Positions 6,881 to 37,238 of a DNA stretch of 64,000 nucleotides are shown here, piece after piece. Source of the DNA: Gammaproteobacteria bacterium (lineage in GTDB: Bacteria > Pseudomonadota > Gammaproteobacteria > JAABTG01); contig JAXHLS010000002.1 of assembly GCA_034522055.1 (NCBI GenBank), positions 1,488,001 to 1,552,000 of the forward strand, written 5' to 3'. A program made the position numbers and the translations under genes. The notes beneath the pieces were generated by a model that did no database searches, was not told the origin of the DNA, and worked only from the letters and a program-made list of their open reading frames with translations. The stretch's first letter is position 1. Each line of letters opens with the position of its first letter.

Positions 6881-6896
6881 GCTCCTACTTCGAGCC

Positions 6897-17022: not shown

Positions 17023-17790
17023 TCACGACCGCGGGGCTTGCGCGTGGAGGTCGAGGTGCCGAGACGTGGCGCTCTCCGGCATGGGCCGCAGCGGCCCGTG
17101 GGGCGCCCGCCGGGTACCGGCGATCACGGCCTCGGGGATCGTGCCCAGCTGCGCCTGCGCCTCGGTCGCGCGGGCGGTCCCCTGCAGCACCTCCGCACGG
17201 ATCAGCCCCGTGGGGCGGTATCCCAGGGGGCTCTGGAAGGCACGGCGCAACGCGCGACCACCCAGGGACGCGGTGCGCTCGCCGTCGTCAGCGGTGATGA
17301 CGCCGATATGCCGGGCGGTGAGCACGGCGCGCACGAGCCGATCGTAGGCCGCCACCAGCTGGGCGCCGCGGAAGGCGTAGGGATTGCTGAAGCGCAGCGG
17401 TGTGTGGGTCGGGCGTACCGATGCCGCCGGCGTCGCACGGATGGCCGCCGAGGCATTCAGGCCGGTCTCCACCGTTTCGATGGCCGCGGCCAGCGCCTGA
17501 TCGGCCGCTTCGAGGGCATCGTGAACCTTGAGCAGCCACCAGTCGGCATAGGGATCGTCGGCCCTCACCCCGTGCCAGATGGCGCGGAGCAGGTTCGCGA
17601 AGCCGATGAGTCCGATGATGGCCGGCTTGTCCGGGGTACCGGGGCGTCCCTTCACCAGGCGCTGGGCCTGACGGGTCTCGAGGGTGAGGGTCACCACGCC
17701 GCGCAGGACCCCGGGCCGATCGGCCTCCGGGGACGGGACGGTACGCGAGTCGGGATCTGTTCGGGGGATCTCCGTGGCCTGCTGATTCAC
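17023..17790 (-). CDS. Integrating conjugative element protein, TIGR03761-like (PFL_4669)
   Basis: A 255-residue soluble protein. Segments such as GVVTLTLETRQAQRLVKGRPG, AIIGLIGFANLLRAIWHGVRADDPYADWWL and RFSNPYAFRGAQLVAAYDRL match the TIGR03761/PFL_4669 ICE family as I remember it. The function is unknown. The start is GTG (17790) with AGGAG 8 nt upstream. The intergenic region above it (17791-18008) contains the 19-bp palindrome. Confidence 0.8.
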   Translation of the reverse strand: MNQQATEIPRTDPDSRTVPSPEADRPGVLRGVVTLTLETRQAQRLVKGRPGTPDKPAIIGLIGFANLLRAIWHGVRADDPYADWWLLKVHDALEAADQALAAAIETVETGLNASAAIRATPAASVRPTHTPLRFSNPYAFRGAQLVAAYDRLVRAVLTARHIGVITADDGERTASLGGRALRRAFQSPLGYRPTGLIRAEVLQGTARATEAQAQLGTIPEAVIAGTRRAPHGPLRPMPESATSRHLDLHAQAPRS

Positions 17791-18008: not shown

Positions 18009-19241
18009 TCAGGACCGGCGATCCGGCTTGGCACCCCGTGGCGGCATCCCCAGGAGCCTGCGGGCTTCGGCCAGCGGGCTCTCCCCACCCGCCCGTACCT
18101 GCTCCAGACGCCGCCGATGATCCCGTGCCCGGGCCGCGGCCTCCTGGCGCTGGTGCGCCGCCGCCGCGGCGTCCCGTTCGCGGGCCTCCCGGACCTTGAT
18201 CCCGAGGTTGGGCTGGAAACCGCCGCTGTGGGCCCGGCTGCAGAGGTGATGGAGATAGCGGAGTTCGTCGTAGATCGGCCTGGCGCCCTGCCGCTCGGCG
18301 CGAAAGCGCCCTTCGAGCTCGTCGAGCACGGCCTGGCGCTGCCCCGCGTCGACGCGCTCGAGGTAGCGGGCGGCGATGTCGAGCTGGTTGGCGGAGAGCC
18401 GGTGCGGATAGATCAACGGCGCGCACCCGGCGTCGGCATTCGATGCCGACGTGGGATCCGTTGTTGTTGTTGTTTTATTTATATAACTACTACTACTACG
18501 AACCGACTTCGATATTTGAGGGCTCAAAATTCGAAGGCGGTCCCCAACCGCCTTTGATTTTTGGTCCTGGTTGGTGAGCCGGGCCAGGACAGCGGCGCTG
18601 AAGCTGAAGTAGCGTCGCGCGCCGGCCTGGTGCACCGCTTGCGCGGCCTCGAGGCGGCGCTCCATCCCATTGGTGGGTGCCAGCACGTCGACGCCGGTGG
18701 CAATCTCCTCGTCGAGGGAGGCCAACACGGCCGCTGCCACCTTGCGGACCCGGGCGTGGTGGTGCCGGCCCACCGCCCTCAGGAAGGCCATGTACTCGGC
18801 ATCGAGGTGCAGCGCATCGGCCAGGGGCAGGGGCTCGTCGTGCAGGGCATAGACGTTGCCCCGATAGCGGCCACCGTCGTCCCTGACTCGCGCGCACAGG
18901 GACAGCCAGCGGGTCACCCGCAGGATGGCGATGGCGCGGGACACCGTGGAGGTGGAGGCGATGTTGGCGTGGCGGGCGATGGCGTCGTAGCGGGGAAACG
19001 CGGTGCCGGTAGGGATGGCCCGGCCCTGCTGGCAGATCACCATCCACACCACCTTGTCCACCGGCTCCAGGACGGGATCCTGCACCAGCAGCAGCGGAAA
19101 GGCCTGGTGCCGGTTGCCGAGGAACAGCAGGGCATCCCCGCTCCCGTCGGTGGTCTGCCGGCAAGCCTGCGAGACGGTCTCGCGGATCAGGGTGTCGAGG
19201 GCACGGGTGGCCGGTCGGACATCCCCCTCGTGCCGGCCCAT
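18009..19241 (-). CDS. STY4528-type ICE/pathogenicity island replication protein
   Basis: A 410-residue protein of the STY4528 family, a presumed replication or initiator-associated protein of SPI-7/PFGI-1 elements. The N-terminal half contains a winged-helix-like stretch (RYDAIARHANIASTSTVSRAIAILRVTRWLSL). The C-terminal part is Arg/Glu/Ala-rich and helical. An AT-rich run of in-frame triplet repeats (18461-18500) encodes the low-complexity linker SSSSYINKTTTTT between the halves, strikingly unlike the GC-rich gene around it. The role is known only by family association. Confidence 0.78.
   Translation of the reverse strand: MGRHEGDVRPATRALDTLIRETVSQACRQTTDGSGDALLFLGNRHQAFPLLLVQDPVLEPVDKVVWMVICQQGRAIPTGTAFPRYDAIARHANIASTSTVSRAIAILRVTRWLSLCARVRDDGGRYRGNVYALHDEPLPLADALHLDAEYMAFLRAVGRHHHARVRKVAAAVLASLDEEIATGVDVLAPTNGMERRLEAAQAVHQAGARRYFSFSAAVLARLTNQDQKSKAVGDRLRILSPQISKSVRSSSSYINKTTTTTDPTSASNADAGCAPLIYPHRLSANQLDIAARYLERVDAGQRQAVLDELEGRFRAERQGARPIYDELRYLHHLCSRAHSGGFQPNLGIKVREARERDAAAAAHQRQEAAARARDHRRRLEQVRAGGESPLAEARRLLGMPPRGAKPDRRS
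18461..18500. repeat. Trinucleotide microsatellites within the STY4528-type gene
   Basis: Runs of GTT (five units) and ACT (five units) separated by an AT-rich spacer, read on the minus strand as Thr5 and Ser4. Being triplets, slippage would alter linker length without shifting the frame. Confidence 0.75.
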
Positions 19242-19250
19242 GGGCGCGGC

Positions 19251-19886
19251 TCAGCGTCCGGCCGGTGGCCGGTTGGCGTCTGAGTCTTCCATCGTTACCG
19301 GGGCGGGGCCGGCCGGCGACAAGTCACCATACTCGGCCCAGCGCTGGGTGAGCACCCACACGGCGCGAAGCGATGCCCCCGTCTCCCGGCTGAGTTCGAG
19401 GTAGACTTCCGGGGCCAGGGGCGCCGTCGGATCGGGGGCCGTGCGCTGGCACCAGGCGTGCCACAGGGTGTGGGAGGTGGCCTCGTCGGGCTCGGGCGGC
19501 CTGCCGGTGGCGGGTTCGGCGGTGAGGACGCGGCGCAGCCGCGTGTACTCCCGCGAGCCCACGCCGAAGAGTCGGCGCATCATCTCCAGCGGGGCGTCGG
19601 CCTGGATGAAGTCCCGTTGTAGATCCTCCAGTTCCCGTTCCCGGCGCAGGTGGCCCAGCAGCGGCCAGTAGATCTCGCGATTGAGCCGGATGTCGAGACA
19701 GTGGGCCTGCAGGGCGCCTATCCGGTAGAGATCGGCCAGGTTGACGTCGCGCAGGGCGGCCACCTCCTCCGGCCCGAAGTTCATGCCGCGCAGGGCATGC
19801 TGATCGCCCTCCGCCAGGCAGCGGATGGCATACAGCAGGACCGCCCGCACCAGCTCGGATTCCTTGGTCCCGGTGGCGGTGCTCAT
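19251..19886 (-). CDS. DUF2857 / STY4526-type ICE replication protein
   Basis: A 211-residue protein starting MSTATGTKESELVRAVLLYA. It is helical, with ALRDVNLADLYRIGALQAHCLDIRLNREIYW and MMRRLFGVGSREYTRLRRVL, the latter resembling a helix-turn-helix. This matches the DUF2857 (STY4526) family of island replication proteins. The ATG at 19886 is chosen because it overlaps the stop of the upstream gene by 4 bp; a longer frame only runs into overlapping coding sequence. Its function is unknown beyond family naming. Confidence 0.75.
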   Translation of the reverse strand: MSTATGTKESELVRAVLLYAIRCLAEGDQHALRGMNFGPEEVAALRDVNLADLYRIGALQAHCLDIRLNREIYWPLLGHLRRERELEDLQRDFIQADAPLEMMRRLFGVGSREYTRLRRVLTAEPATGRPPEPDEATSHTLWHAWCQRTAPDPTAPLAPEVYLELSRETGASLRAVWVLTQRWAEYGDLSPAGPAPVTMEDSDANRPPAGR

Positions 19887-20491
19887 GGCCACAGCGCCGT
19901 GCCGGCGGCCTCGGCGGCCTGATGGAGGTCCCGGTAGGTCTCCATGAGCGCCACCAGGTCCCGCCAGGTCCGCCCGTCCAAGCGGCGCCACAGCCTGAAC
20001 CCCATGTGGCCGGGATCCAAAGTCCACACACTGGAGAACAACAGGCCGGCGTCCTGATCCTCGAGGGCACGGCGCAGGACGGAGCTCTCGGTCAGGTTGG
20101 GGAGGATCTCGTCCACGGGGGCCACCGTCATCTCCGCCACCGCCGCGAGATACCACCAGACCATGGAGATCTGGGCCAGGGTATCCTCGTCCAGCTGATC
20201 CACGAGGGCCGGATCGGGCACGTCCGTGAGCAGGAACCCCAGCCCTCGACCGGGGAGCGGCTGAATCAATTCGCTGAGACCATTGCGTTGGGCCAGCAGG
20301 CTGGCCAGGGTCCAGGCCCGGGCCCGCAGGGACTTGATGTCCCCGGGGCCGGGGGCGGCGTCCGGATTGTCCGTCCCGGTATGCTCGATGGCCTCGGAAG
20401 ACGGTATCTCTCCCCCCGGGGGACCATCGCCGTCGCTGGTCGCCGTTGGCTCCGTCCCGTCAGCGGGGGTGGTTGCGGGAGTCACGGTCAT
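19883..20491 (-). CDS. ICE protein of unknown function between ParB and DUF2857
   Basis: About 202 residues. A Thr/Pro/Gly-rich disordered N terminus is followed by an ordered part with ARAWTLASLLAQRNGLSELI, LAQISMVWWYLAAVAEM and LDPGHMGFRLWRRLDGRTWRDL. The position corresponds to the unnamed genes between parB and STY4526 in SPI-7-type islands. I do not recognise a domain. The start is uncertain: the ATG at 20491 overlaps parB by 32 bp, and 20542 is also in frame. Confidence 0.6.
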   Translation of the reverse strand: MTVTPATTPADGTEPTATSDGDGPPGGEIPSSEAIEHTGTDNPDAAPGPGDIKSLRARAWTLASLLAQRNGLSELIQPLPGRGLGFLLTDVPDPALVDQLDEDTLAQISMVWWYLAAVAEMTVAPVDEILPNLTESSVLRRALEDQDAGLLFSSVWTLDPGHMGFRLWRRLDGRTWRDLVALMETYRDLHQAAEAAGTALWP

Positions 20492-21530
20492 GTTCTTCGC
20501 CGGCGTCCGGCGCGGGGTGTCCGATGGGGCTTCGCGCGTCATGCTGGCTGCGACGTAACGGCAACTGGAGCGGCGCGATTTCGGTTTCGCTGCCGGCCGT
20601 AACGGCAACCGACGGCTGCGGTTTCGGTTCGCGCCGGCCGACGACGGCAACCGGAGCGGCCGCGGTTTCGGTTTGCGCTGCCGGCCCCGCCTCGCCGTGG
20701 CGCCCGGCGAGCCGAGTCTCCAGCATCATGCTCACCGCCTGGATGCTCACCTCCGCCTGCTCGGCGATCTCGGCCTCCAGGGCGCGGCGCAGGTGGCCGA
20801 TGTCCCAGTCCGGATCGTCATAGCGCCGACACAGGGCACCGAAGGTCTGGTCGAACACCGCCTCGGTGTCCACCGCGCGCTCGAGCCAGATGGCGCGGAC
20901 CGCACGCTCCAGCTGGCGGATCCGTTCGACCTGGGGCCGGCCCAGGCCGGACAGCAGCGCCGCCGGCAACAGCGGCAGCAGCCGCTCGACGGCATATTGC
21001 ATCTGGGAGATCAGCCCCTGGCTGAGCCCGTAGCCCCGATCCTTGAGTGCCGCAGACAACTCGGCCTGGGTGATCACACCCGTACCCGCTTCCCCTTCGA
21101 TCAAGCGCTTCGCCTCGTCCACGGCCAGGGCCTTGTCCAGAAAGTTGAGCGGGCCCCGCAGATCGTTTTCACGCAGGTGGGCCAGCAGGACGTCGGTCTC
21201 CCCGGTCCATGGCCGATAGAGGCAGGTGATGTCGCGAAAGCGTGCCTCGCCCGTCTCCTCGTAGAGCTCCAGCAGGATCCGCAGTCGCGTGTTACCGCCA
21301 CCATGGATCATGTAGTCGGATTCACCGGGACGTCGGGTCACCACCAGCGGCTGATCCAGGCCTTCGGCCCGTATGGAGGCCTTGATGCGGAGATACTCCG
21401 GGTTGGGCTGCTGGCGTGGATCCCGGTCATAGCGCCGGATCTCACGGACATCGAGCGCCAGCAGGGTGGCCCCCTCCTCCACCGCCGCTACCGTGCCATC
21501 CCGGCCGGCGCCCGTGTCTCCGTCGGTCAT
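20460..21530 (-). CDS. parB: ParB family partition/regulatory protein
   Basis: A 356-residue ParB. The ParB/Srx domain lies at residues 25-125, with YLRIKASIRAEGLDQPLVV as box I and MIHGGGNTRLRILLELYEE as box II (the NTR pocket residues). Next comes a KorB-like helix-turn-helix around LSAALKDRGYGLSQGLISQMQYAV. The C-terminal 100 residues are Ala/Pro-rich. It overlaps flhC-like by 4 bp. No ParA gene is present in the window although ParA normally heads this operon. Confidence 0.85.
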   Translation of the reverse strand: MTDGDTGAGRDGTVAAVEEGATLLALDVREIRRYDRDPRQQPNPEYLRIKASIRAEGLDQPLVVTRRPGESDYMIHGGGNTRLRILLELYEETGEARFRDITCLYRPWTGETDVLLAHLRENDLRGPLNFLDKALAVDEAKRLIEGEAGTGVITQAELSAALKDRGYGLSQGLISQMQYAVERLLPLLPAALLSGLGRPQVERIRQLERAVRAIWLERAVDTEAVFDQTFGALCRRYDDPDWDIGHLRRALEAEIAEQAEVSIQAVSMMLETRLAGRHGEAGPAAQTETAAAPVAVVGRREPKPQPSVAVTAGSETEIAPLQLPLRRSQHDARSPIGHPAPDAGEEHDRDSRNHPR

Positions 21531-22186
21531 GGCCGTCTCCTCGCCGGCCCGGCGCGCCGCTGTCTCGCCGGCCCGTTTTGGACGGTGGCCTTGCCACAGT
21601 CATGGCACCGGGAGGGCATTCGGCCGGTGAGATGGCCGGGCCATGGCCTGCCGCAAGTCGGGCAGCGATGGCGCCGATAGAGCAGGCAGGCGGGGCACAG
21701 ACTGTGGGGCTCACCGGCCGGGCCCACGGAGCGGACGCCGCACTCGACACAATGCTGGGCCTGCCAGATCCCGCTCTGAACCAGCACCGGGATGCTGTGG
21801 ATCCGCGCGATGTCGAGCAGGGGCTCGCGCACGGCCTGGTGGTAGAGGGTATTGAGGGCGATGAGATGGGCGGCCGGGGCGAGGGCATGGTCCACCAGGG
21901 CGTGGTGATAGCGCCATACGATGCTGGCGTGCAGTCGCCGCATCAGGGACTTCATCAGCCAGGTATCCGTGTAGGGTGCGAGCCCGGGCGGCGAATGGCG
22001 ATGATGTACCTCACGATACATCCGGCCAATCCGGGCCTGGGACAGGCCGGTCAGTTGCTGCACCAGGCCGGCGCGGGCGCCGCAGCGGATCAGCTTGAGC
22101 GCCTCGGCCTCGATCCGGCAGCGGCTTTCGGTGGGTGTGGGCACCGGCCCTGCCGGGGCTGCCATCGCCAGGGGATCCAGGGCCAT
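21527..22186 (-). CDS. FlhC-like transcriptional activator, ICE-borne (pair 1)
   Basis: A 219-residue FlhC homologue. The conserved helical core includes EAEALKLIRCGARAGLVQQLTGLSQARIGRMYREVHHRHSPPG, and the C terminus carries four CxxC pairs (CVEC, CPAC, CPTC, CHDC) where enterobacterial FlhC uses four Cys in all. With its FlhD-like partner it should form a heteromultimeric activator comparable to SetCD of SXT/R391 or AcaCD of IncC plasmids, controlling transfer genes and not flagella. It is co-transcribed with flhD-like (12-nt gap) and parB (4-bp overlap). Confidence 0.82.
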   Translation of the reverse strand: MALDPLAMAAPAGPVPTPTESRCRIEAEALKLIRCGARAGLVQQLTGLSQARIGRMYREVHHRHSPPGLAPYTDTWLMKSLMRRLHASIVWRYHHALVDHALAPAAHLIALNTLYHQAVREPLLDIARIHSIPVLVQSGIWQAQHCVECGVRSVGPAGEPHSLCPACLLYRRHRCPTCGRPWPGHLTGRMPSRCHDCGKATVQNGPARQRRAGPARRRP

Positions 22187-22198
22187 CGCCGTCCCCCC

Positions 22199-22492
22199 TC
22201 AGGGTGCGGCCAACAGGCCGGCGTGGGCCAGCACCGCGTCCACCTCGGCGGTCCTGCCCGACTGGAGAGCCTGGAACAGCCGTGTCCACCACCAGGATTC
22301 GCGGCGGGGTACGAGGAGTGGGATCCGGATGTCGATGGAGCGGGCCAGATCGTCGGGCTTCAGGGCCCCGATCTGTTCCACCCACTGGATCGGCACGCCC
22401 ATCAACGCACCGGCGCACTGGGGTGCCTGGTGCGCGAGATCGCGGGCCTGGATGAGGTATTGAAGATTGAGTTTCGAAAAGTCCGTATTCAT
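22199..22492 (-). CDS. FlhD-like activator subunit, ICE-borne (pair 1)
   Basis: A 97-residue FlhD-like protein: LNLQYLIQARDLAHQAPQCAGALMGVPIQW is the family's N-terminal signature and IPLLVPRRESWWWTRLFQAL the second half. It would pair with the FlhC-like product just downstream. It is clearly paralogous to the FlhD-like protein at 25659-25955: both share LNL-YLIQARDLA, and a WWW-RL motif with the Trp cluster conserved. Confidence 0.8.
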   Translation of the reverse strand: MNTDFSKLNLQYLIQARDLAHQAPQCAGALMGVPIQWVEQIGALKPDDLARSIDIRIPLLVPRRESWWWTRLFQALQSGRTAEVDAVLAHAGLLAAP

Positions 22493-22546
22493 GGCGCGCT
22501 ACTCTTCGCTGTGGTGGCGGCTGGCCCGTGCGCGCGACGCACCGGC

Positions 22547-22831
22547 TCACCGATCGCCTTCGGCCATCGGGCCGTGGACGTTGTTGATGAGTTCGGCGAC
22601 GAGCCGCGAATCGAAGTAGACCCGGCGCCCGTGGCGACGCCGCGCGTTGGCCAGCGCCTCGGTGAAGGGATGGGAGCGGCGATCGAGGGCCATGCGCAGT
22701 CCCTTGGGCGTGGTGTGCAGAACCGTGGCCACGTGCTCGACCTTCATGAGTGGCCCGAAGTGCTGCAGCAGGTAATGGTAGGTCCCGGTATCGATCCCTG
22801 GTCCGTCCTGAGTACTGGTGTGTCCTTTCAT
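22547..22831 (-). CDS. Small putative DNA-binding protein heading the flhDC-parB operon
   Basis: About 94 residues from the ATG at 22831. The core MKVEHVATVLHTTPKGLRMAL ... GRRVYFDSRLVAELI resembles an AlpA/MerR-like winged helix-turn-helix as seen in excisionases and small plasmid regulators. It lies 54 bp before the flhD-like gene on the same strand. A regulator or recombination directionality factor role is possible, but I infer it only from size, fold pattern and position. Confidence 0.5.
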   Translation of the reverse strand: MKGHTSTQDGPGIDTGTYHYLLQHFGPLMKVEHVATVLHTTPKGLRMALDRRSHPFTEALANARRRHGRRVYFDSRLVAELINNVHGPMAEGDR

Positions 22832-23676
22832 GGTCTCGATCCTAGTCCGTGGCTGGGGGTTTAACCTGTCCGAAAGCGGCACTTGAACAAGGGGCTTTCC
22901 CGCCTATTTCGGCCGCATGCCGTCAATGGTCGATGGTCCAAGCGTCAAGCCTGCGGATCATGGCCATGCCGGGAGGTATCCCCCTCGTCCAGCGCGCTCG
23001 AGGAGACTTCACGCGGCGTCAGTTACGTGCTGGGCTCGCCCGATCACACCAGGGCTTCGCCCGCGAACACGCCGCAAAGGGAAGGGAAGAACAGGGCCGC
23101 GCCCTTGGGTGAGCCTGGCCTGGCCTCTGGATCTAGAAGGACGTCACGCGCGCCTACGGTTGGCCCGGAAATTGTCCGCAGCCACAATGGGACGGCGCTT
23201 GCCCGGCGACCGTTGGGGACAGGGCGTCAACGGGACCAGGGTTTCGCGAGGGCTGTTGCGATGGGTGACGATGGCTGCGTGGTCGTTTCGAGGCCGTCGC
23301 TCGGGTTTGCGGACGTTCTGGCCGATGACCACCATGAACGATGTCGCTCTCCGCCGTGGAGATTGCGTATGTCGTAGAGAAACAGCGGCGGGGTGTGGGT
23401 GGGACGTCGAGTCCCCTCGGTCCAGGAGCCCGCCATGACCCGGGGGCCGGGGATCCGCTCTCCTTCACGCTCAGATCGCGCTTCGGGGCTGGATGACTTG
23501 GCGTCGGCCAAGGATCACGCCAACACCGAATAGGGGACCGTACTTCAACCGTATCGTGGAATGCCGGCATCGCGGTGTCTCGCTCAACCTCGATCCCCTA
23601 TTGCATCGCTCACCCCGCGGGTGGTCCCTGGCTTCCACGAACCACGGCTCCGAGCCTGAGTCATGCATCTATTCAG
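22832..23676. other. Gene-poor region, about 850 bp
   Basis: Several overlapping frames are open on both strands but none has a ribosome binding site, a consistent codon pattern or a recognisable family. It sits exactly where parA and dnaB would be expected upstream of parB, so it may be decayed or replaced backbone. Confidence 0.45.
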
Positions 23677-24354
23677 TCACGGCAATACCCCGTTCAAGCC
23701 CATCGATCCGCCGCCCCCCTCTACCATCGGATCCAAACCGTAACGTGCCGCGACAATGCCGAGCTGTGCATCGGTCGCGACATTGAGCTTACGCCGGATA
23801 CTGCGCCGATGGTGCTCGACCGTCTTCGCTGCCAGGGCAAGTCGGTCGGAGATCTCGGCGGCTGTCTGACCGCGGAGCATCAATAACAGGACGTCCATTT
23901 CCCGATCGGACAAGGAATCGACGCAGGCATCCTCCCGATGCACGTAGTCCAGGGCGATCTGTTGTGCCAGGCCGGAATCCACGTAACAGTCGCCCGCGTA
24001 GACCGCTCGAATGGTCCGCACGAGCTCATGAACAACGGCCTGCTTGGTCAGAAACCCTTTCGCACCCGCCGCCACGGCGCGTACGGCGAAGCCGCGTTCT
24101 ACCAGTCCGGTGAGGACGATGATCCGTATCTCCGGGAGCTGGCGCGACAGGCGGCGCGTGACCTCGAGACCCGAAATGCCGGGCAGCTTGATATCGACCA
24201 ATGCGATGTCCGGCTTCATCGCATGCGCCATCTTGATGGCCTCCTCCCCCGACTTGGCCGCACCGACGACCGTCATGTCCTCGGCGTTATTGCACACCCC
24301 GCTGAGCAGGGTGCGCATCATCCCCTGGTCGTCTGCCACTAGGATCTCGATCAT
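23677..24354 (-). CDS. NarL/UvrY-type response regulator
   Basis: A 225-residue response regulator. The receiver domain (1-125) has Asp8/Asp9, phospho-acceptor Asp54 (ALVDIKLPG), Thr at VLTG and Lys in AKGFLTKQA. The LuxR-type HTH lies at about 145-205 (SLSDREMDVLLLMLRGQTAAEISDRLALAAKTVEHHRRSIRRKL). It is similar in layout to UvrY/SirA/GacA. No histidine kinase is encoded nearby, so it probably answers a chromosomal kinase. It overlaps the HDOD gene by 4 bp as the last gene of the XRE-HDOD-RR operon. Confidence 0.88.
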   Translation of the reverse strand: MIEILVADDQGMMRTLLSGVCNNAEDMTVVGAAKSGEEAIKMAHAMKPDIALVDIKLPGISGLEVTRRLSRQLPEIRIIVLTGLVERGFAVRAVAAGAKGFLTKQAVVHELVRTIRAVYAGDCYVDSGLAQQIALDYVHREDACVDSLSDREMDVLLLMLRGQTAAEISDRLALAAKTVEHHRRSIRRKLNVATDAQLGIVAARYGLDPMVEGGGGSMGLNGVLP

Positions 24355-25151
24355 ATCCAGTACTCCGAAAATAACTGCCGGTATCCGTCGTAGAGCCGCC
24401 GAGCACCCGCAGTCACCTGCTCAGCCTCTGCCTCCGTCCTGCCCGGGAGGTCTTTCACCTCCTTTTCCTGATTCGCCACTTCGTTGGCGGCCGCCACGAC
24501 GCTACTGGGCGAATCGAGCCCGTCATAACCCGCGTGATGTCCCTCTGCACAGGCCGCCAATACCGCCGGGAGCCGCCACTCCTGAAGCAGCACGCCACCG
24601 ATCGTTGCGTGGGTGACTCCCAGGATCTCGTTCTCGGCCTCCAGCAGTGGGGTCCCGGCCTCGACCCGGTCGAGCACCGTCCGGTATGCATTGGGCGCCT
24701 GGCGTACCAGGCACAACTTGCCGATATCGTGTAGCAGGCCGCACACCCAGATCGGCGCCGCCTTTTGCTGCACTCCCGGCCGCATCAGGGCATTGGCGTA
24801 ACAGGCGGTCAACAAGCTGTGGTCCCAGAATGTCTCCATGCTGAACGCCCTTTCAGAGATCCCCCTGAAGATCCGCACCACCTCGGTTGAGAGCACCAGG
24901 CCCGCGACGTCCAGGGTCCCTACCCTCACCACCGCCTCACGGACCGAACCCACCGGCGTCTTGACGTAGAAGGCCGAGTTCGCGAGTCGCAAGAGGCGCG
25001 CCGTTATTGCCGGATCCGATTCGATGATGCGGGCGAAATCGTCTGCGCCACCGCTCTCGATCTCGTCGAAGAGCTTGAGCACCACGGGCGCCGGTGACGG
25101 AAGCCGAGTACTACAGACGAGCTGGCCAATGTCCATGCCGCGCTTCGTCAA
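24351..25151 (-). CDS. HDOD domain signalling protein
   Basis: A 266-residue HDOD protein: LPSPAPVVLKLFDEIESGGADDFARIIESDPAITARLLRLANSAFY is the standard N-terminal part, and LLHDIGKLCLV is an HD motif in the C-terminal part, with a further HATIGGVLLQEWRLP. HDOD proteins are usually non-catalytic signalling partners. It overlaps the XRE regulator at its start and the response regulator at its stop by 4 bp each, so the three are almost certainly made together. Confidence 0.85.
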   Translation of the reverse strand: MTKRGMDIGQLVCSTRLPSPAPVVLKLFDEIESGGADDFARIIESDPAITARLLRLANSAFYVKTPVGSVREAVVRVGTLDVAGLVLSTEVVRIFRGISERAFSMETFWDHSLLTACYANALMRPGVQQKAAPIWVCGLLHDIGKLCLVRQAPNAYRTVLDRVEAGTPLLEAENEILGVTHATIGGVLLQEWRLPAVLAACAEGHHAGYDGLDSPSSVVAAANEVANQEKEVKDLPGRTEAEAEQVTAGARRLYDGYRQLFSEYWI

Positions 25152-25522
25152 AGCCCCAGGATCCGGTCCACTTCGTCGCGTCGATCCGGAGACGCCCGAA
25201 GGTAAGCCCGCTGCAACTCGGCGAGTCGGTCGGTGAGTGCCGCGACCTCAGCCGGATCGTCCAGCAGATCGGGTTTCTCAGCGACCGCTTCGGCCAGCGC
25301 GTAAAGGGCGACGACGCTGGTGCCGAACACGCCGGAAATGCGCTCGAGATGGCGTGGGTGAACACCTCCCGGCAAGCCCCGCTCGGTGCGCGACAGGTTC
25401 GCCGCCGATACGTCCGCCAGACGTGCCGTCTCCTCCAACGACACGCCCCGAGTAACCCGTAGCGCCCTTAGAACTAACCCGATGGGCGAATCCCCTAGTA
25501 TCTGTTTGCTCCTCCCGCTCAA
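25148..25522 (-). CDS. XRE-family transcriptional regulator
   Basis: A 124-residue regulator with a lambda-Cro/CI-type helix-turn-helix (LRALRVTRGVSLEETARLADVSAANLSRTERG, residues 15-50) and a helical C-terminal tail that may dimerise. It is the first gene of the XRE-HDOD-RR operon and is divergent from the second FlhD/FlhC-like pair. The intervening 136 bp contains a 15-bp palindrome 16 bp from its start. By analogy with SetR of SXT elements I infer a repressor of the divergent activator genes; it lacks the LexA-like protease domain of SetR. Confidence 0.78.
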   Translation of the reverse strand: MSGRSKQILGDSPIGLVLRALRVTRGVSLEETARLADVSAANLSRTERGLPGGVHPRHLERISGVFGTSVVALYALAEAVAEKPDLLDDPAEVAALTDRLAELQRAYLRASPDRRDEVDRILGL

Positions 25523-25537
25523 AGTATCTTATCCGCC

Positions 25538-25552
25538 TTGTAATTATTACAA
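25538..25552. promoter_or_regulatory. 15-bp palindromic operator TTGTAATTATTACAA
   Basis: A perfect palindrome (seven-base arms, one central base) between the divergent XRE and FlhD-like genes. It is built from the same TGTAAT/ATTACA half-sites as the 19-bp palindromes at 6522, 6706, 7942 and 17971, but with the half-sites in the opposite order. Confidence 0.6.
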
Positions 25553-25658
25553 ACTTTGAGATCCTATCGCAACGCCCGGCCGGTCCCGATCCAACAGGGC
25601 CTGTCTAGGATTGTAGTGGGTCCAGTGCTAGTCGAGAAAAACGACACGGAATTGGCAG

Positions 25659-25955
25659 ATGACAGAGTACGATTTCTCACACCTGAATCTGGAGTATTTG
25701 ATCCAGGCGCGCGATCTGGCACGGCAAAACCTGCACGGCTGTGCCTTGCTCCTGGGGATCCCCGAAGAGCTCGCCGCGCGCCTCGCGGATGTCACACCGG
25801 CCGGCCTGTCTCGCGTCGCGGCGTTCAAGCCACCGCTGGTGTCCCCCAGGCTGGGCGACTGGTGGTGGGAGCGACTGCTTACAGCGTTGACCGACGGCGA
25901 TGGCGACGAACTCCAAGCAGTCCTCGAGCACGCCAGCCTGATTACAGCCGGCTAG
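25659..25955 (+). CDS. FlhD-like activator subunit (pair 2)
   Basis: A 98-residue FlhD-like protein with FSHLNLEYLIQARDLARQNLHG and the Trp-rich LGDWWWERLLTALTDGD. It is the second FlhD-like protein in the window. It is divergent from the XRE repressor candidate and 32 nt upstream of its FlhC-like partner. The ribosome binding site is weak (GGA about 10 nt upstream), consistent with controlled expression. Confidence 0.8.
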   Translation: MTEYDFSHLNLEYLIQARDLARQNLHGCALLLGIPEELAARLADVTPAGLSRVAAFKPPLVSPRLGDWWWERLLTALTDGDGDELQAVLEHASLITAG

Positions 25956-25987
25956 CCCATACCCATTCCCTGCAGCCAGCGACCCTC

Positions 25988-26620
25988 ATGGGCACAGGAA
26001 TGGATTCCATCGCTGCCCATGGTCCGGAACGGAACATCAACGTCCGACTCGCCGCCGATCCGGCCTGGAAAAAGACGGTGGCGGTCCTCGATGCGACCCG
26101 GCTCATGGAATTGGGGGCCCGGACTGGGTTGATCTGTCACTTGACGAAGCTGGACAGGAAGACCGCGAATCGACTGTACCGGCAGATCTACGGTCGACCC
26201 TCTCCGCCCGGGCAGTTCCCGTTCAGCGACGCCTGGTTTCTGAAAAGCGAGCGGCGGATGCTTCACGCCGCTATCGTCTGGCGTATTCACAAACACCTGC
26301 GAGAAACCAACAGCCGCCCCGCCCGCATTCTGATCGACGTCTACGAGATCTACCGGCAGATCATCCAGGAGGATCTCCTCGGGATCTCCCAGGTCGCCTT
26401 CGTCCCGCGCATCCTGGAGATGCAACTCTGGCACGAGCGACAATGCCCGCGTTGTTTGACCGAGTTTATTTCGCCCGTCGAGGAAACCGACGCGAGCTGC
26501 CCCGGCTGTCGACTGCATCATCGCTTTCGCTGCCGGTACTGTGGCGGGCGAGCAGAGGGGCTGCGCAGAGGTCGCCGCCCCGCGACCTGCCGGCATTGTG
26601 GGGCGGCGCGGGATCCATGA
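25988..26620 (+). CDS. FlhC-like transcriptional activator (pair 2)
   Basis: About 210 residues from the ATG at 25988 (26000 is an alternative). The FlhC core is visible in LMELGARTGLICHLTKLDRKTANRLYRQIYGRPSPPGQ and RRMLHAAIVWRIHKHL, and the C-terminal zinc-binding region has four CxxC pairs (CPRC, CPGC, CRYC, CRHC). It should act with the FlhD-like product as a master activator. It differs clearly from pair 1, so it is an independent acquisition or an old duplication, not a recent copy. Confidence 0.8.
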   Translation: MGTGMDSIAAHGPERNINVRLAADPAWKKTVAVLDATRLMELGARTGLICHLTKLDRKTANRLYRQIYGRPSPPGQFPFSDAWFLKSERRMLHAAIVWRIHKHLRETNSRPARILIDVYEIYRQIIQEDLLGISQVAFVPRILEMQLWHERQCPRCLTEFISPVEETDASCPGCRLHHRFRCRYCGGRAEGLRRGRRPATCRHCGAARDP

Positions 26621-27079
26621 AAAATTGGTTCCGATGACTGCGGCGGTTGGTACCTGCTTAGATCTTCAATGGAGAAGGCTGGTGGGCCTTTGCGCCTGGC
26701 GGGTCTATCACTGAGGCCTCGCGCCAACTGATATTGTGGCAATAATGGGTGACGTCCCCTTCGACATCCATTCCGAGTTCGGGGAACTCCTGAGCGAGCA
26801 CCTGCGCGACTGGCTGGAATGTTCCCCCAATTGACCAGTTTGCCAAACTGGTGTCCGCCATCGTGGCGCAGGCGGCCGTAATCCGCGTGGAGATGGGTTG
26901 TCCGACAGCCCGGCTCCAATCGAAGACAAGCACTTGAGTCTAAAGAGAGTCTAAGACTGCAGTCTAGGGCCGGTCAGGACCAGCGCCAGATTGCCCCGAA
27001 GCCGGGGGATCGGCAAAACGACTTTCGCGGAGTGCATGGCCCGCTTCAAGCGATCGGGCTTGTCTTGGCCACAGGCGCA
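26621..27079. other. Gene-poor stretch, possible gene fragment on the minus strand
   Basis: A 91-codon minus-strand frame (26658-26933, GTG start) includes SLANWSIGGTFQPVAQVLAQ and looks protein-like, but I recognise no family and see no ribosome binding site. The rest holds no candidate gene. Confidence 0.3.
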
Positions 27080-28184: not shown

Positions 28185-28454
28185 ATGGGTAAGAAACCGG
28201 CGTTAACCCCCGACCAGCGTGCGGCGCTAGTGCTGCGGATGCTGAGCAAAGAAGAGCCGGCCGCGCAGATCGCGCCGCGTGCCGGGATCTCGGAGCAGAC
28301 CTTGTACCGTTGGCGTGAGGAGTTCTTCAGCGCGAGGAAGCTGGCGCTGGCCGGACGTGGCGCAGAGCACGACCAGGTCAAGGAGATCGGCCGGCTGAAG
28401 TCGGCGGTGGCCCAGGGAGCGGACGGTGACCACACTATTCATCAGCCACAGTAG
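28185..28454 (+). pseudogene. Transposase OrfA (IS3-type), truncated by the TIR gene
   Basis: After GAAGGAG, an ATG opens MGKKPALTPDQRAALVLRML then AGISEQTLYRWREEFFSARK, a standard helix-turn-helix OrfA. The last ~10 codons (from about 28420) no longer resemble a transposase and overlap the TIR protein start. The element's orfB is absent. Confidence 0.65.
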
Positions 28455-31218
28455 CAAGGACAAGGCCTGGGCTCAGCGCGTGCATCAGGCGCTGTCCGAC
28501 GCCGGTTATCAGTGCCTGTTTCTGGACTCGCACCCCGACGACGGCATCCACGCCGGCGCCGACTGGGAGCGCATGCTCTACCAACGTCTACGCCAGAGCC
28601 GTGGAGTGATCGTGCTCTGTACCGCCAACTGGCTCAGCTCCCCCTGGTGTGTTGCCGAGGCGATAATGGCTCGGGGGCGCAAGCGGCGCGTCTTCCTGGT
28701 CGCCGCGGATGACATCGTTGACAGGCGCCAAGCGAAGGGTGATCAAGAAGGGGCCCCGACGATCCCAGAATTTCTGACGGACAGGCAGTTCGTCAGTCTC
28801 GCCGGACTCACAGAGAAGGAGGCCGTCCAGCGACTGCTGCAAGGGCTGGAAAGGGAGGGCCTGAAGAAGCAAGACTTCAAGCTGCCCGAGCGACCCTACC
28901 CCGGCCTGGCGCCCTTCCAGGAGACGGACGCCGCCGTCTTCTTCGGCCGCGATGATGACACCGACCACGTTATTGATCGACTGCACCGCCGCCGCAAGGG
29001 CGACGCCAAAGGATTTGTGCTTCTCCTTGGAGCTTCGGGCTGCGGCAAGTCGTCTCTGGTGCGCGCCGGCGTGATCCCGCAGCTGCGCCGCGCAGGCAAG
29101 GACGAGGCGGCTGGTCCACGCTGGATCGTTGCTCCCCCAGTTCTCGCCGGCCGAGGGATCGAAGGGCTTGCCCTCGCGTTCGCGGACGCCTTCCGGCGTG
29201 CCGAGAAGCCGCGAGCATTGCAAGACGTTCGCGGACGAATGACCAGCTCCGGCGATCTGCGGCTGCTCGCAGGCGAACTACTCGACGCCCACCACGCAGC
29301 GAACGGCAGCGTCCTGCTCGTCCTGGACCAGCTCGAGGAGGTTTTGGACACCCCAGAGGAATCCCATGTTCGAGCGGCCCTGGCGCTGCTGCTGGAGGCA
29401 AGCGCTGACTTCGGCAGCCCCCTCGTTGTCCTGGCCACCATGCGGTCAGACTTCCTTAACGCGTTCCAGCTCTTCGAAGGAGCGGCGGACCGCTACGAGG
29501 CGGTCACACTCGATCCGATGCGCCGCGACCACTTCGGGCAAGTGATTGAGGGCCCGGCCGAGCGTTTCGGCCTCGACCTCGATCCCGGACTTGCTACGCG
29601 CATGGTGCAGGACACCGCCTACAGCGACGCCCTACCGCTGCTCGCCTTCACCGTGCGGAAACTTTATGGGCAATGCAAAAGGCAGGGCCGGCTGACCTTA
29701 GCCGCCTATCAGGCGCTCGGCGGTGTCTCCGGCGCCATCGAGCACGCTGCGGACAGCATCCTGTATGAGACGGGATACAAAGACTTGACACAATCGGATC
29801 CTAGGATGCGCGACCTGCGACGGGCCTTCTACAGCTTGGCCCAGGTGGGCGAGGAAGGCCGGTTCACCCGCCGCATCGCCCGCTGGTCGCGTATGCCCGC
29901 CTCCTGCGACACCATTCTAAATCGCTTAGTCAACGAGCGATTGCTGGTGTCGAGCAGCGCCAGTGGCGAACCGATCCTCAGCGTCGCCCACGAGGCCCTG
30001 TTCCGCGTCTGGAATACGCTCCATTGTTGGCTGCTGCAGGACCGCAGTGCTCTCAGTCTGCGCGCCCAGATAGAAGAGGCCGCTACCGCGTGGAGCGTGG
30101 AACCGCGGCCGGAGATCCACGCTCAGCTTCTCTGGCCGGAGGAGCGCATCCTGGACTCCGTGAGCAAGATCGCTCGCAGCGGCGTGTCGTTAGAGGACGT
30201 GGCAGACCCTAAGCTTGTGCGCGCCTTTGCAGGCCCCACCGATCCAGATATCCTGACGCAGTTGCCGGCCCTGAGTACGGGTCAGGATAGCGAGCGAGGC
30301 AGCGGCCCCTTCGGAGATGCCTGGCACCTACCACTCAGCCATGCGGCCCGATCCAGCGTTGGCGTGCGCCTAGCAATTCTCGACGACCACCGCCCCGGGG
30401 TCGGTCTGCGTCCTGACGGTTTGCCCGACATCGATTGGTGTCGAATCGACGGAGGGGAGGTGACCATCGAGATCCGCGTTAATCCGGATGATCCCAACTC
30501 GGAAGTCGCCGATACGGTAACGCAAGCCGTCAACCCATTCTGGATAGCCCGTTACCCGGTGACGATCACGCAATTCCAGACTTTTGTCGTGGAGTGCTTT
30601 CGGAAAGGCGACGATCAGACGTGTAAGTGGCATCTACCAGATGGGGTTCCTATCAGCTTGCTGAAAAACAATCCGCCGCCCAAGCACCGAGCGCGCTACG
30701 GCAACCACCCGGCGGACATGGTCAACTGGTGGGATGCCATGGCCTTCTGCCAATGGCTAAGCATACGCATCGGATACGATGTACGGCTCCCGACCGAATA
30801 CGAGTGGCAATGCGCGGCGATCGGTGCAAACACTCGACGGGGCAAGCCCGAGAAAATCTATCCGTGGGGCACGGATTGTGACCAGCAATGCGAGCCCTGG
30901 CGCGCCAATACCACCGACAGCGAACTCCACCGCTCGACGGCAGTCGGGCTTTATCCCCTCGGGGCCTCCACCGCCGGCGTGTTCGACATGGCTGGAACGG
31001 TCTGGGAATGGTGTCTGAATGCCTTCGAAGACCCCGATGACAACAGTTTACCAGGTGGCGACCAGGACCGTCGGGTGCTCCGCGGTGGATCCTGGGGCAA
31101 CTATCTGGCCTTCGCGTGCCCCACCTACCGCTATGGGCGTTACACGGACTTGCGTCGCTTTAGCTTCGTGGGGTTTCGGGTTATGTGCTCGACCCCATGT
31201 TTGGGCACTAAACTCTGA
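28426..31218 (+). CDS. TIR-STAND NTPase-FGE (SUMF1-like) multidomain protein, putative defence gene
   Basis: A 930-residue protein in three parts. Residues 1-145 form a TIR domain (LFISHSSKDKAW; candidate catalytic Glu78 in SSPWCVAEAI). Residues 155-600 are an nSTAND-type NTPase (PYPGLAPFQETDAAVFFGRD, Walker A GASGCGKS at 202-209, Walker-B-like VLLVLDQLEEVL). Residues about 670-925 are a formylglycine-generating-enzyme/SUMF1-like C-type lectin fold (FWIARYPVTITQFQTFV, RLPTEYEWQCA, FDMAGTVWEWC, VLRGGSWGNY). TIR domains often hydrolyse NAD+ on activation; STAND modules sense and oligomerise; here the FGE domain would be the sensor or peptide-binding module. The GTG start lies inside a truncated transposase gene. 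An abortive-infection role is inferred. Confidence 0.88.
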   Translation: MTTLFISHSSKDKAWAQRVHQALSDAGYQCLFLDSHPDDGIHAGADWERMLYQRLRQSRGVIVLCTANWLSSPWCVAEAIMARGRKRRVFLVAADDIVDRRQAKGDQEGAPTIPEFLTDRQFVSLAGLTEKEAVQRLLQGLEREGLKKQDFKLPERPYPGLAPFQETDAAVFFGRDDDTDHVIDRLHRRRKGDAKGFVLLLGASGCGKSSLVRAGVIPQLRRAGKDEAAGPRWIVAPPVLAGRGIEGLALAFADAFRRAEKPRALQDVRGRMTSSGDLRLLAGELLDAHHAANGSVLLVLDQLEEVLDTPEESHVRAALALLLEASADFGSPLVVLATMRSDFLNAFQLFEGAADRYEAVTLDPMRRDHFGQVIEGPAERFGLDLDPGLATRMVQDTAYSDALPLLAFTVRKLYGQCKRQGRLTLAAYQALGGVSGAIEHAADSILYETGYKDLTQSDPRMRDLRRAFYSLAQVGEEGRFTRRIARWSRMPASCDTILNRLVNERLLVSSSASGEPILSVAHEALFRVWNTLHCWLLQDRSALSLRAQIEEAATAWSVEPRPEIHAQLLWPEERILDSVSKIARSGVSLEDVADPKLVRAFAGPTDPDILTQLPALSTGQDSERGSGPFGDAWHLPLSHAARSSVGVRLAILDDHRPGVGLRPDGLPDIDWCRIDGGEVTIEIRVNPDDPNSEVADTVTQAVNPFWIARYPVTITQFQTFVVECFRKGDDQTCKWHLPDGVPISLLKNNPPPKHRARYGNHPADMVNWWDAMAFCQWLSIRIGYDVRLPTEYEWQCAAIGANTRRGKPEKIYPWGTDCDQQCEPWRANTTDSELHRSTAVGLYPLGASTAGVFDMAGTVWEWCLNAFEDPDDNSLPGGDQDRRVLRGGSWGNYLAFACPTYRYGRYTDLRRFSFVGFRVMCSTPCLGTKL

Positions 31219-32210: not shown

Positions 32211-33680
32211 GTAAGCGCCTAGCGATCCCCAGTGTTGATCACCGCGTCACGGTGTTTTAGGGGATCACGTTCCACGGCAGCAGTGCCTCGAAGGCCTCGA
32301 CGGTAGTGGCCCTGGGGAGTTCGGCAAAGACGTGGCGCAGGTAGGTGTAGGGCTCGAGGCCGTTGGCTTTGGCGGTCTCGATGAGGGCGTAGAGGTTGGC
32401 GCTGGCGTTGGCGCCTTTGGGGGTGTTGGAGAAGAGCCAGTTTTTGCCGATGACGAAGGGGCGGATGGCGTTCTCGCAGCGGTTGTTGTCGGTGGCGAGG
32501 CGGCCGTCTTCAAGATAGCGGATGAGGCCGGGCCATTGGTGGGCGAGGTAGCCGAGGGCCGTGCCGGTGGCGGACTTCTCGGGTACTTGGGGCAAGGATT
32601 TGTCCAGCCAGGCTTTGAGTTCATGGATGACGGGCCGGGCTTCGGCCTGGTGGGCGGCATGGCGGTCCTCAGGCGAGGCATCCTTCCATGCGCGCTCGAT
32701 ACAATAGAGTTTCTGGATGAAGGCGAGTCCTTGGTGAGCCTTGCCGGTGCGGGCCTTGGCGCCCTTGCCCTGGGCGCGGATAGCCTCGTCGAATTTCCGC
32801 CGCGCATGGGCGAAGCAGCCGACGGCGGTGATGCCGGGGACGCGGGCCACGGCGCGATAAACCGCGTAGCCATCGGTCTGTAGATAGCCCTGGTAATCGG
32901 CCAGCACGCGCTGGGGCACGGCGCTGCTGCGTGAGGGATCGTAATCGTAGAGGATGACGGGCCGGCCCGGTGGCCCGCCCCGCTGTACCCAGAGGTAAGA
33001 TTGGGATTGGGCGCTCCGGCCGGGCTCCTTGAGCACTTGTACGGTGGTCTCATCCATCTGCAGGACATCGTAGCCCAACAGGGTGTCCCGCAGCAGGTTG
33101 ATGAGGGGCTGGACGAGGGCCCCGCAGGCCACCATCCAGTAAGCCAGAGTGGTCCGTGACAGCTCGATGCCGGCCCGTCCCAGGAGCGCGTGCTGGCGAT
33201 AGAGCGGCAGGGCATCCACGTATTTGGCGGTGGCCACGTAGGCCAGCAGGCCGGGGCTGGCCAGGGACTTCGGGATGGGCTGGGGCGGCATCGCTGCCTG
33301 GGCCACGCCCCCCGCTTGGCACTGCGGACAGGCGTAGCGGGGGCGGACGTGGCGCAGGACCTGGATCTTGGCGGGGATGATGTCGAGCTGCTCGCTGACA
33401 TCCTCGCCGATGGGGACCATCTCACCGCAACCACAGGGGCACTGTTTTTCCGCGTCCGGCACATCGTGGACGATGTCCACCCGCGGGAGCGCATCAGGCA
33501 AGCGTTGACGACCGGGCTTCTTACGGGCATGGGCCGGCACCGTGACGGCCTCATCGGCCGGTGCCTCGGGGGCTGGCCCCAAGTGACGCCCCAGCTCAGT
33601 AAGGGTCGCCTTACTCCCCGTGAGAAGCCCTTCCACGACCCTCACGACGGCCCTCACCCGGGCGCTTCAGGTTCACCTCC
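32211..33680 (-). mobile_element. IS66-family element, truncated at its 5' end
   Basis: The terminus GTAAGCGCC at 32211 matches IS66-type ends and lies just beyond the transposase stop. No matching inverted end or tnpA/tnpB genes are found beyond 33657, so only the tnpC part survives. The element interrupts an IS3 OrfA gene. Confidence 0.6.
32257..33657 (-). CDS. IS66-family transposase TnpC with a foreign N terminus
   Basis: 466 residues. From about residue 45 onward it is a standard IS66 TnpC: KPGRQRLPDALPRVDIVHDV, the zinc-ribbon-like CPCGCGEM and ACPQC, DDE-domain motifs (LQMDETTVQVL, YLQTDGYAVYRAV, CFAHARRKFDEA) and the NRCENAIRPFVIGKNWLFS signature. The first ~33 residues (VVRVVEGLLTGSKATLTELGRHL) instead resemble the N terminus of IS4-type transposases, and the usual IS66 N-terminal leucine-zipper region is missing. 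This implies an in-frame fusion of two elements; whether it still transposes is doubtful. Confidence 0.82.
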   Translation of the reverse strand: MRAVVRVVEGLLTGSKATLTELGRHLGPAPEAPADEAVTVPAHARKKPGRQRLPDALPRVDIVHDVPDAEKQCPCGCGEMVPIGEDVSEQLDIIPAKIQVLRHVRPRYACPQCQAGGVAQAAMPPQPIPKSLASPGLLAYVATAKYVDALPLYRQHALLGRAGIELSRTTLAYWMVACGALVQPLINLLRDTLLGYDVLQMDETTVQVLKEPGRSAQSQSYLWVQRGGPPGRPVILYDYDPSRSSAVPQRVLADYQGYLQTDGYAVYRAVARVPGITAVGCFAHARRKFDEAIRAQGKGAKARTGKAHQGLAFIQKLYCIERAWKDASPEDRHAAHQAEARPVIHELKAWLDKSLPQVPEKSATGTALGYLAHQWPGLIRYLEDGRLATDNNRCENAIRPFVIGKNWLFSNTPKGANASANLYALIETAKANGLEPYTYLRHVFAELPRATTVEAFEALLPWNVIP

Positions 33681-33784: not shown

Positions 33785-34963
33785 TCAAGATAAAAAGCGA
33801 CTCAACTGTGATACGGCGCACACATGCTTTACCGCGTACGCCTGGCCAACCTTCTGGATGTCCAGGATGTGCTGCACGGAGTCCATGACCTGCACGTGCT
33901 CCGGGTCGATGTCTGACAGGTTCAGAGCGTCCAGTCCAGACTGGCTTACGTCCGGATCATAACGAACATATGTGAACAGTTTCTGACCCGTCCAGTTCGG
34001 TAACCCCTTCTCGGGTGCCACCATATCCCCGATTTCGCGGTCTAGGACCGGACCGAACCGACATTCGCCCAGCATTCGGCACGCCATGTCCCAGCCCGCG
34101 CTGGCCGCATTCATAAGTGCCGAAGGAATGTTCTTCGCGTGGTCGAGCAGCCAGAGATCACGCGCCTGCAGATCAGGACGCGCCTTGGCGGCGGCGCCGG
34201 TTCCTACAGAGACCACCAGAAGCCGGTCCGTACCCATCGGCCAATCGACCTTGTAGGGAGCGGCGGTCGCCATCTGGAAGGCTAGGAATGCCGGATTGTT
34301 GTAGCTCGTCACGCCTCCGTCAACGAAGATGAACGGGTACTCCTGGTTGGTTCCGGGAGCGAAGGTCACGACTTCCGGGGGGAAAAAGGTTGGGGCGGCC
34401 GTACTCGCCCGCACCAGCTGCCAGAGGGGCAGGTCCAAATTGCAGTCCAGGCGCTGGCGCTGGTTGTACATGGCCCGAGGATTGTTGGAGACTGGCCACG
34501 GAGAGTCAGTCGTGTGATTCCGCAGAACCATCATGAGCAGAGTGCGCAGACCTGGGTCGCCCAGGGTGGCGGGCAGCGTGTCGCTCGCGTAGCCGAGGGC
34601 TTTGTTGAGCTCTGCGCGCAGCATCCTGGCAAGTGGCTCATCGTTGTAGCTGTAGCGCAGCCGATTGAAGAGAGACGCCTTATCAAACATCTGCTGCCCG
34701 CTGCTCACGTAGAAGGTGCGGATCTGATCCATTGACATTCCAGTGGAGACGCAGGTCGCAATCACTGCTCCTGTGCTGGTACCGCATACAAAGTCGAACC
34801 AGTCCGACAGAACCAAGTCCGCCTTGTCGAGTTGGGCGCGCAGATCCGATTCCAGTTTCGCGAGGATCTCCACGCTGATGAGCCCCAGGATACCGCCGCC
34901 GTCACAGGCGAGGATCTTTTTGGGACCATCGGATTCCAAACAGCTTTTCACATGCTCATTCAT
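33785..34963 (-). CDS. Patatin-like phospholipase, putative defence effector
   Basis: A 392-residue patatin/CapV-like lipid hydrolase. The oxyanion-hole glycines are at 22-24 (ACDGGGILGL), the nucleophile Ser63 is in GTSTG and the catalytic Asp215 is in FVDGG, so the Ser-Asp dyad is complete. Bacterial patatins of this type degrade membrane phospholipids and act as effectors of CBASS and related abortive-infection systems. No cyclic-nucleotide synthase is nearby; instead the upstream same-strand gene is an NDT/TPR/SLOG protein, which could provide the signal. The intergenic gap of 149 bp leaves co-transcription unproven. Confidence 0.87.
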   Translation of the reverse strand: MNEHVKSCLESDGPKKILACDGGGILGLISVEILAKLESDLRAQLDKADLVLSDWFDFVCGTSTGAVIATCVSTGMSMDQIRTFYVSSGQQMFDKASLFNRLRYSYNDEPLARMLRAELNKALGYASDTLPATLGDPGLRTLLMMVLRNHTTDSPWPVSNNPRAMYNQRQRLDCNLDLPLWQLVRASTAAPTFFPPEVVTFAPGTNQEYPFIFVDGGVTSYNNPAFLAFQMATAAPYKVDWPMGTDRLLVVSVGTGAAAKARPDLQARDLWLLDHAKNIPSALMNAASAGWDMACRMLGECRFGPVLDREIGDMVAPEKGLPNWTGQKLFTYVRYDPDVSQSGLDALNLSDIDPEHVQVMDSVQHILDIQKVGQAYAVKHVCAVSQLSRFLS

Positions 34964-35112
34964 AACCGGGGCTTCCGGAAACTGCGTGGGTCAAAGTAAC
35001 CGAATCTCTCATTTAAGGGTGAACGTCTCGGGGGGGCCGTGGCTACCTCTGCCGACCATCGACTTCTAAGACGCCGCGTGCCCACGATCCCTTGGCACGC
35101 TTCCGCACCTGA

Positions 35113-37098: not shown

Positions 37099-37238
37099 GG
37101 TCATCTTCCCTGCAGGGCTATGCCCCCTCGCCTCCAGTTGGCAAAGCTACGGGGCCTTCGCCCATGCGTTCTGTGAGAGGCTCGGTTCAGGGCGGGTCGT
37201 AGTCACGGTGAGCGGTCGCCGGGCAATGGAGCATTGCC

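Follow-up and report, generated by a model that had tools for sequence, protein, structure and literature searches.

The locus described here raises the question of whether an XRE regulator that diverges from a second FlhD/FlhC pair serves as the transfer switch of a mobile island in the manner of SetR and SetCD of the SXT/R391 elements, as the original prediction held. Within the window, by which we mean the whole stretch of 64,000 nucleotides analysed, the arrangement was recovered exactly as predicted, with the xre gene (25148-25522, minus strand) and the genes of FlhD2 (25659-25955, plus strand) and FlhC2 (25988-26620, plus strand) diverging from a 136-bp spacer (25523-25658) that carries a perfect 15-bp palindrome. 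The putative XRE repressor is a protein of 124 aa with a TTG start, an HTH at residues 15-71 and a short C-terminal extension; it matched HTH_31 (6e-9) and HTH_3 (PF01381, 6e-6), both above the Pfam cut-off, and no domain other than the HTH families passed that cut-off, which bears out the claim that it lacks the protease domain of SetR. The second gene of the xre operon encodes an HDOD protein of 261 aa (24351-25136, minus strand; PF08668, 1e-47), whose start is more likely the ATG at 25136 than the TTG at 25151, because the alignment with the HDOD protein of L036, a related locus treated below, begins at MDIG. The third gene, which overlaps hdod by 4 nt, encodes an orphan LuxR-type response regulator (RR; 23677-24354, minus strand) with Response_reg and GerE domains, whose GacA/UvrY resemblance is seen in a match to PRK09483 at 1.5e-52, under the cut-off of that family; residues D54 and K104 are conserved in the alignment with the RR of L036, and no histidine kinase partner was identified. 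Both members of the divergent pair exceed the curated Pfam cut-offs for an FlhC/FlhD-type activator, FlhD2 with PF05247 (4e-7, score 30.7 against a cut-off of 27) and FlhC2, a protein of 210 aa with conserved Cys pairs, with PF05280 (8e-19, score 68.5 against 27). Between the window module and the copy in ICE2, a second element of the same genome, dN/dS is 0.11 in both xre and hdod and rises to 0.21 in rr, 0.30 in flhD2 and 0.34 in flhC2; these two full copies have diverged under purifying selection in every module gene, pair 2 being less constrained than XRE.

The candidate XRE operator is the palindrome itself, TTGTAATTATTACAA (25538-25552). When the spacer was shuffled with its dinucleotides preserved, 0.7% of the shuffles contained perfect 7-bp arms with a 1-bp centre, a share that rose to 4% with any centre of 0-6 bp allowed, so the palindrome taken alone is only moderately unusual; it becomes strong evidence through its uniqueness in the genome and its conservation in L036. 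Across the 5.1-Mb genome, with at most one mismatch, its sole occurrences are the window spacer and the matching spacer of a second module copy (C2:3125708-3125722), and neither the rest of the spacer nor the rest of the window holds a second site with up to three mismatches. A promoter is predicted for xre at 25543-25572 on the minus strand (-35 TTGCGA at 25572-25567, an 18-bp gap, -10 AATAAT), and its extended -10 with TG, TGTAATAAT, falls inside the palindrome; the equivalent promoter predicted in L036 (5218-5189, TTGCAA-18-AATAAT) lies over the palindrome in the same arrangement. Since the predicted -10 overlaps the conserved palindrome in both loci, autorepression of xre-hdod-rr is well supported, and the palindrome is very probably where XRE binds to repress its own operon. 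The promoter scan detected no sigma70-like promoter facing flhD2 in either the window spacer or L036. The clearest conserved block on the flhD side outside the palindrome region is GGATTGTAG (25608-25616, plus strand), which occurs once per locus at +70 from the palindrome in window and L036 alike and is a possible element of an flhDC-2 promoter. An outer CTCAAAGT/ACTTTGAG repeat was set aside, since its centre does not coincide with that of the palindrome and it did not turn up in L036. When the regions upstream of flhD2 and orf111 were compared, no FlhDC target motif was found, and the one 9-mer common to both was taken as a chance match.

With regard to the distribution of this layout, a profile search with FlhC disclosed 13 related loci, and a close-relative scan of genome contigs with FlhC2 as the sole query gave no match; in the sample of 369 genomes, five close FlhC loci were noticed outside this genome, two of which (L030 and L043) are apparently one contig. 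In most of the related loci, orf111-flhD-flhC precede parB-DUF2857-STY4528-AcaB, to which parA is added in some cases; some loci stand alone. The original prediction had proposed looking for the same divergent layout in other islands, and it was indeed present, though in only one of the related loci, L036, where STY4528, DUF2857, ParB, orf111, RR, HDOD and XRE follow one another on one strand and FlhD-FlhC lie on the opposite strand. The proteins of the two loci are considerably diverged (identity of 69% for XRE and RR, 51% for HDOD, 68-70% for FlhD and 57% for FlhC), and the HTH core of XRE, VSAANLSRTERGLPGG, is identical in both. In L036, as in the window, 16 bp separate the start codon of xre from a perfect copy of TTGTAATTATTACAA. 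Anchored at the start codon, the two spacers share an identical block of 18 bp that contains the palindrome, against 36% identity over the remainder, and the longest identical run in 5000 shuffles was 9. This conservation, together with the identical HTH core, makes the palindrome a probable XRE operator.

The genome that harbors L036 has exactly one FlhC of the ICE type, which is the divergent one; orf111 there directly precedes ParB, and FlhDC-1, the core-position pair of the window, is absent. The L036 contig, of 65 kb, encodes a VirB4 that is 82% identical to that of ICE2, a TraD-like protein and other conjugation genes, its T4SS genes being 46-91% identical to those of ICE2. As this element carries conjugation genes and no other FlhC, it relies on pair 2 alone, and pair 2 is probably a transfer activator. 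L036 lies on a contig (G370:C5) filed as Nitrospira defluvii, whose end carries uvrY-like, uvrC and pgsA genes, tRNA-Gly and tRNA-Cys next to a tyrosine integrase and is Gammaproteobacteria-like; the contig is probably misbinned. A CsrA-family gene (6734-6913) directly follows flhC in L036, an island in which a GacA-like regulator is encoded as well, and is absent from the corresponding place in the window.

Again, the original prediction supposed that XRE is relieved perhaps through the HDOD protein and the response regulator, and it is the HDOD part of this proposal that gained support as plausible. Among the three best XRE homologues inspected outside this genome in the 369 sampled genomes, two directly precede an HDOD gene; these chromosomal cases show 42% (G090) and 32% (G303) identity in XRE and 35% and 33% in HDOD, respectively, and neither FlhDC nor a related response regulator was found near them. 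They lie in unrelated Gammaproteobacteria chromosomes (L068, 6209-7421; L069, 9947-11155), and the palindrome upstream of the L069 pair is a different and longer one. The HD motif is present in the island HDODs and absent from both chromosomal ones, suggesting that catalysis is no common requirement. Because XRE and HDOD are linked outside ICEs too, HDOD is the natural choice of a protein that may relieve or sense XRE, and we put the chance that it acts on XRE at about even. A tentative extension, which we regard as possible, is that XRE-HDOD pairs make up a general two-protein switch family of Gammaproteobacteria in which HDOD, not proteolysis, would relieve a Cro/C1-type repressor, and that a group of PFGI-1-type ICEs took this family over to control an FlhDC-type master activator above a ParB/DUF2857 (BisDC-type) operon. 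Searches for XRE gave no match in plasmids and none in the order of G126; plasmid matches to FlhC were all below 60% identity, those listed being 26-32% identical and mostly annotated as flagellar, and neither protein had a match in viral contigs. No published description of an XRE-HDOD pair, or of FlhD/FlhC pairs in ICEclc/PFGI-type elements, was found in a mostly open-access literature, which is weak evidence of novelty.

Taking these observations together, we lean slightly towards the reading that the autorepressed xre-hdod-rr operon and the divergent FlhDC-2, located at the right end of the island, form an on/off switch of its transfer, and are less confident of its exact wiring. Under such a switch, XRE seated on TTGTAATTATTACAA over its own -10 would keep the xre-hdod-rr operon low, and HDOD, as the partner of XRE suggested by their linkage, would modulate it according to cellular state, replacing the RecA-triggered self-cleavage of the SetR type. 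With XRE released, the orphan GacA-like regulator would rise, and flhDC-2 would open either directly or through it; the promoter of flhDC-2 has the look of an activator-dependent one. FlhDC-2 may in turn switch on the core operon orf111-(flhDC-1)-parB(BisD)-DUF2857(BisC), the trigger of transfer in ICEclc-type elements, and FlhDC-1, where present, may serve as feedback or amplifier, as L036 with FlhDC-2 as its sole FlhC would allow. With respect to the separate parts, FlhDC-2 probably activates ICE functions. That the state of XRE governs flhDC-2, directly or indirectly, appears somewhat probable; we infer it from the layout, the predicted promoter having been found on the xre side only, and an indirect route from XRE through RR to flhDC-2 is possible. 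Several points speak against this general model, namely the missing flhD2-facing promoter, the gap of 486 bp between palindrome and flhD in L036, the lack of a FlhDC target motif and of an identified kinase, three flhDC-2 copies without xre, the weaker constraint on FlhC2 and the degraded state of the window copy.

The alternative that survives best, though we consider it less likely, is that XRE autoregulates xre-hdod-rr only and that flhDC-2 is a neighbour under independent control, whether RR, FlhDC itself or some host factor drives it. The position of the palindrome on the predicted xre promoter agrees with this, as does the distance to flhD in L036, where some 380 extra bp lie between the GGATTGTAG region and flhD, and the second conserved block at +70 towards flhD would fit as well. 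Against it, the head-to-head linkage persists between elements whose proteins are only 51-70% identical, and the palindrome of the window lies just 107 bp from flhD2. The more specific claim that XRE represses flhDC-2 in the manner of SetR finds no support: it is the predicted xre promoter that the palindrome covers, flhD2 has no sigma70-like promoter directed at it, and the L036 gap is long. The notion of an equivalent switch thus stands in part, for its operator site is conserved and pair 2 is the sole FlhDC of the T4SS-bearing L036, and it is unsupported as far as SetR-manner repression is concerned.

The window does contain two pairs, as had been claimed, and FlhDC-1 is encoded on the minus strand at a distance of 3.2-4.1 kb from pair 2. 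FlhD1 (22199-22492, minus strand) is 45% identical to FlhD2, and FlhC1 (21527-22186, minus strand; PF05280, 3e-15) is 38% identical to FlhC2; it is this pair that occupies the core position, in synteny with related islands. In the FlhC tree, FlhC2 and the FlhC of L036 form one clade (support 97/98) apart from FlhC1, and a recent duplication of FlhDC-1 as the origin of FlhDC-2 was rejected on that ground. The ICE-borne FlhC clade is also separate from three flagellar-type FlhC sequences, and since each of the seven FlhC matches in this genome belongs to the ICE type, a role of FlhC as host flagellar regulator was likewise rejected. The genome holds five copies of FlhC2, the other four being 86-87% identical to that of the window, and two of XRE. 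The three FlhC2 copies without XRE lie at island ends and are all damaged: the one at C2:729668 (L010) is interrupted by a stop and has had its FlhD start replaced, next to remnants of transposases, that at 3486465 (L011) lacks FlhD and shows a large deletion that joins the window-equivalent position 18833 to 25603, and that at 3554621 (L012) has a truncated FlhC2. Such relics, with the weaker constraint on FlhDC-2 than on XRE or FlhD1, lend something to the view that pair 2 is a relic or cargo regulator without a transfer role, left over from island recombination, and that FlhDC-1 with ParB/DUF2857 is the true activator. We find this view unlikely, as L036 has kept pair 2 and lacks pair 1, the dN/dS values of the pair are 0.30-0.34, and it is intact in both full modules. 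The transfer switch built on XRE and FlhDC-2 remains our preferred reading.

A SetR/SetCD-type switch proper, in which XRE would block a strong flhDC-2 promoter and be removed on DNA damage, is very improbable, for although the element ends in a comparable divergent architecture (setR is rightmost in SXT; PMC4542580), the XRE protein is devoid of an S24 domain, no strong promoter points towards flhD2 and a single palindrome takes the place of four operators. SetR of SXT is a protein of 215 aa with a LexA-like S24 domain, four operators and a gene at the rightmost end of the element (PMC4542580). What our module has in common with SXT/R391 is an HTH_3-type repressor divergent from an FlhDC-type activator operon at an ICE end; of the SetR-type features, HTH_3 is present, and Peptidase_S24 and the four partially dyad operators are not, the present repressor having 124 aa, one conserved palindrome and HDOD and RR in its operon. 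A possible origin apart from SetR, as originally proposed, would fit the finding that two of the three best XRE homologues are HDOD-linked chromosomal regulators. Comparatively, the IncC repressor Acr1 is a small, autorepressing, Ner-like HTH protein whose gene shares an operon with acaDC (PMC4207636, PMC4542580); the Acr1/Acr2-AcaCD system of IncA/C shares with ours a small protease-less HTH repressor of its own promoter and an FlhDC-type activator, but acr1 is co-operonic with acaDC, whereas the repressor here is divergent and HDOD-linked. The ICEclc circuit, which the original prediction had missed, is as close a match as SXT, since the island encodes a TIGR03764 ParB and DUF2857 and these BisD/BisC-type proteins lie downstream of FlhDC-1. 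The master activator of ICEclc is BisDC, made up of the ParB-type BisD and the DUF2857 protein BisC (PMC7423338), and both backbones place such a pair downstream of further regulators, which are MfsR-TciR-BisR in ICEclc and XRE-HDOD-response regulator here; ICEclc has ParB as its D partner and DUF2857 as its C partner, to which true FlhD/FlhC pairs are added in our island. No counterpart of BisR, TciR or MfsR stood out among its annotated ORFs. Flagellar FlhDC (PDB 2AVU, 8J56) is related through the FlhC family by profile, that of the FlhC2 subfamily matching E. coli FlhC (2AVU) at 2e-20, but the island pairs have no flagellar context and belong to the separate ICE-borne clade. FlhDC-type activators with dedicated repressors govern spread in SXT and IncC, and the same logic may operate here on an ICEclc/PFGI-1 backbone. 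A protease-less repressor with an HDOD partner and a defined operator would open the signal that induces these islands to direct testing, and HDOD, still a poorly understood domain, would gain in XRE a concrete partner at the molecular level.

The assignment to the PFGI-1 class holds by gene content, the markers of the PFGI-1/ICEclc type (TIGR03764 ParB, TIGR03761, TIGR03759, STY4528 and STY4534) being present, while the wording that this ICE uses the switch is doubtful in view of its degraded copy in the window. The core operon is headed by orf111 (22547-22882, minus strand), a small conserved protein that lies upstream of flhD in most related islands. The BisD-type ParB is split over 19889-21530, its N-terminal part at 20460-21530 (minus strand; TIGR03764, 1e-83) and its C-terminal half in another frame at about 19889-20404, and it is intact with 559 aa in ICE2 (L008, 14571-16250). 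As in the BisDC circuit, it adjoins a BisC-type DUF2857 gene (19251-20156, minus strand; PF11198, 1e-46, domain at ORF residues 104-275), which is accompanied by an ICE replication protein of the STY4528 family (18009-19241, minus strand; NF040582, 2e-57) and an AcaB/PFL_4669-family protein (17023-17790, minus strand; PF08900, 4e-60; TIGR03761). VirB4 (TIGR03744) occurs in the genome only at C2:3169978 and C2:3448789, with none within more than 1 Mb of the window, and the TIGR03760 relaxase had no match in the genome. With VirB4 not nearby and ParB split, the window copy is degraded; ICE2 (at 3.124 Mb) is more likely than it to be functional and would be the working copy, the window copy retaining the switch. 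A TonB-dependent receptor and a PepSY-TM protein (10060-13370) are cargo not found in ICE2. Homology among the four copies ends on the right at 26868-26912, the probable end of the island. Just past it, a defence-like protein with TIR, nSTAND NTPase and FGE-sulfatase-type domains is encoded at 28426-31218, followed by an IS66 transposase (32257-33657) that adjoins genes of a phospholipase-type effector picked up by PADLOC (33785-34963) and of a TPR-S protein that weakly matches a TIR effector (35113-37104), these effector genes (33785-37104) forming a possible defence cluster.
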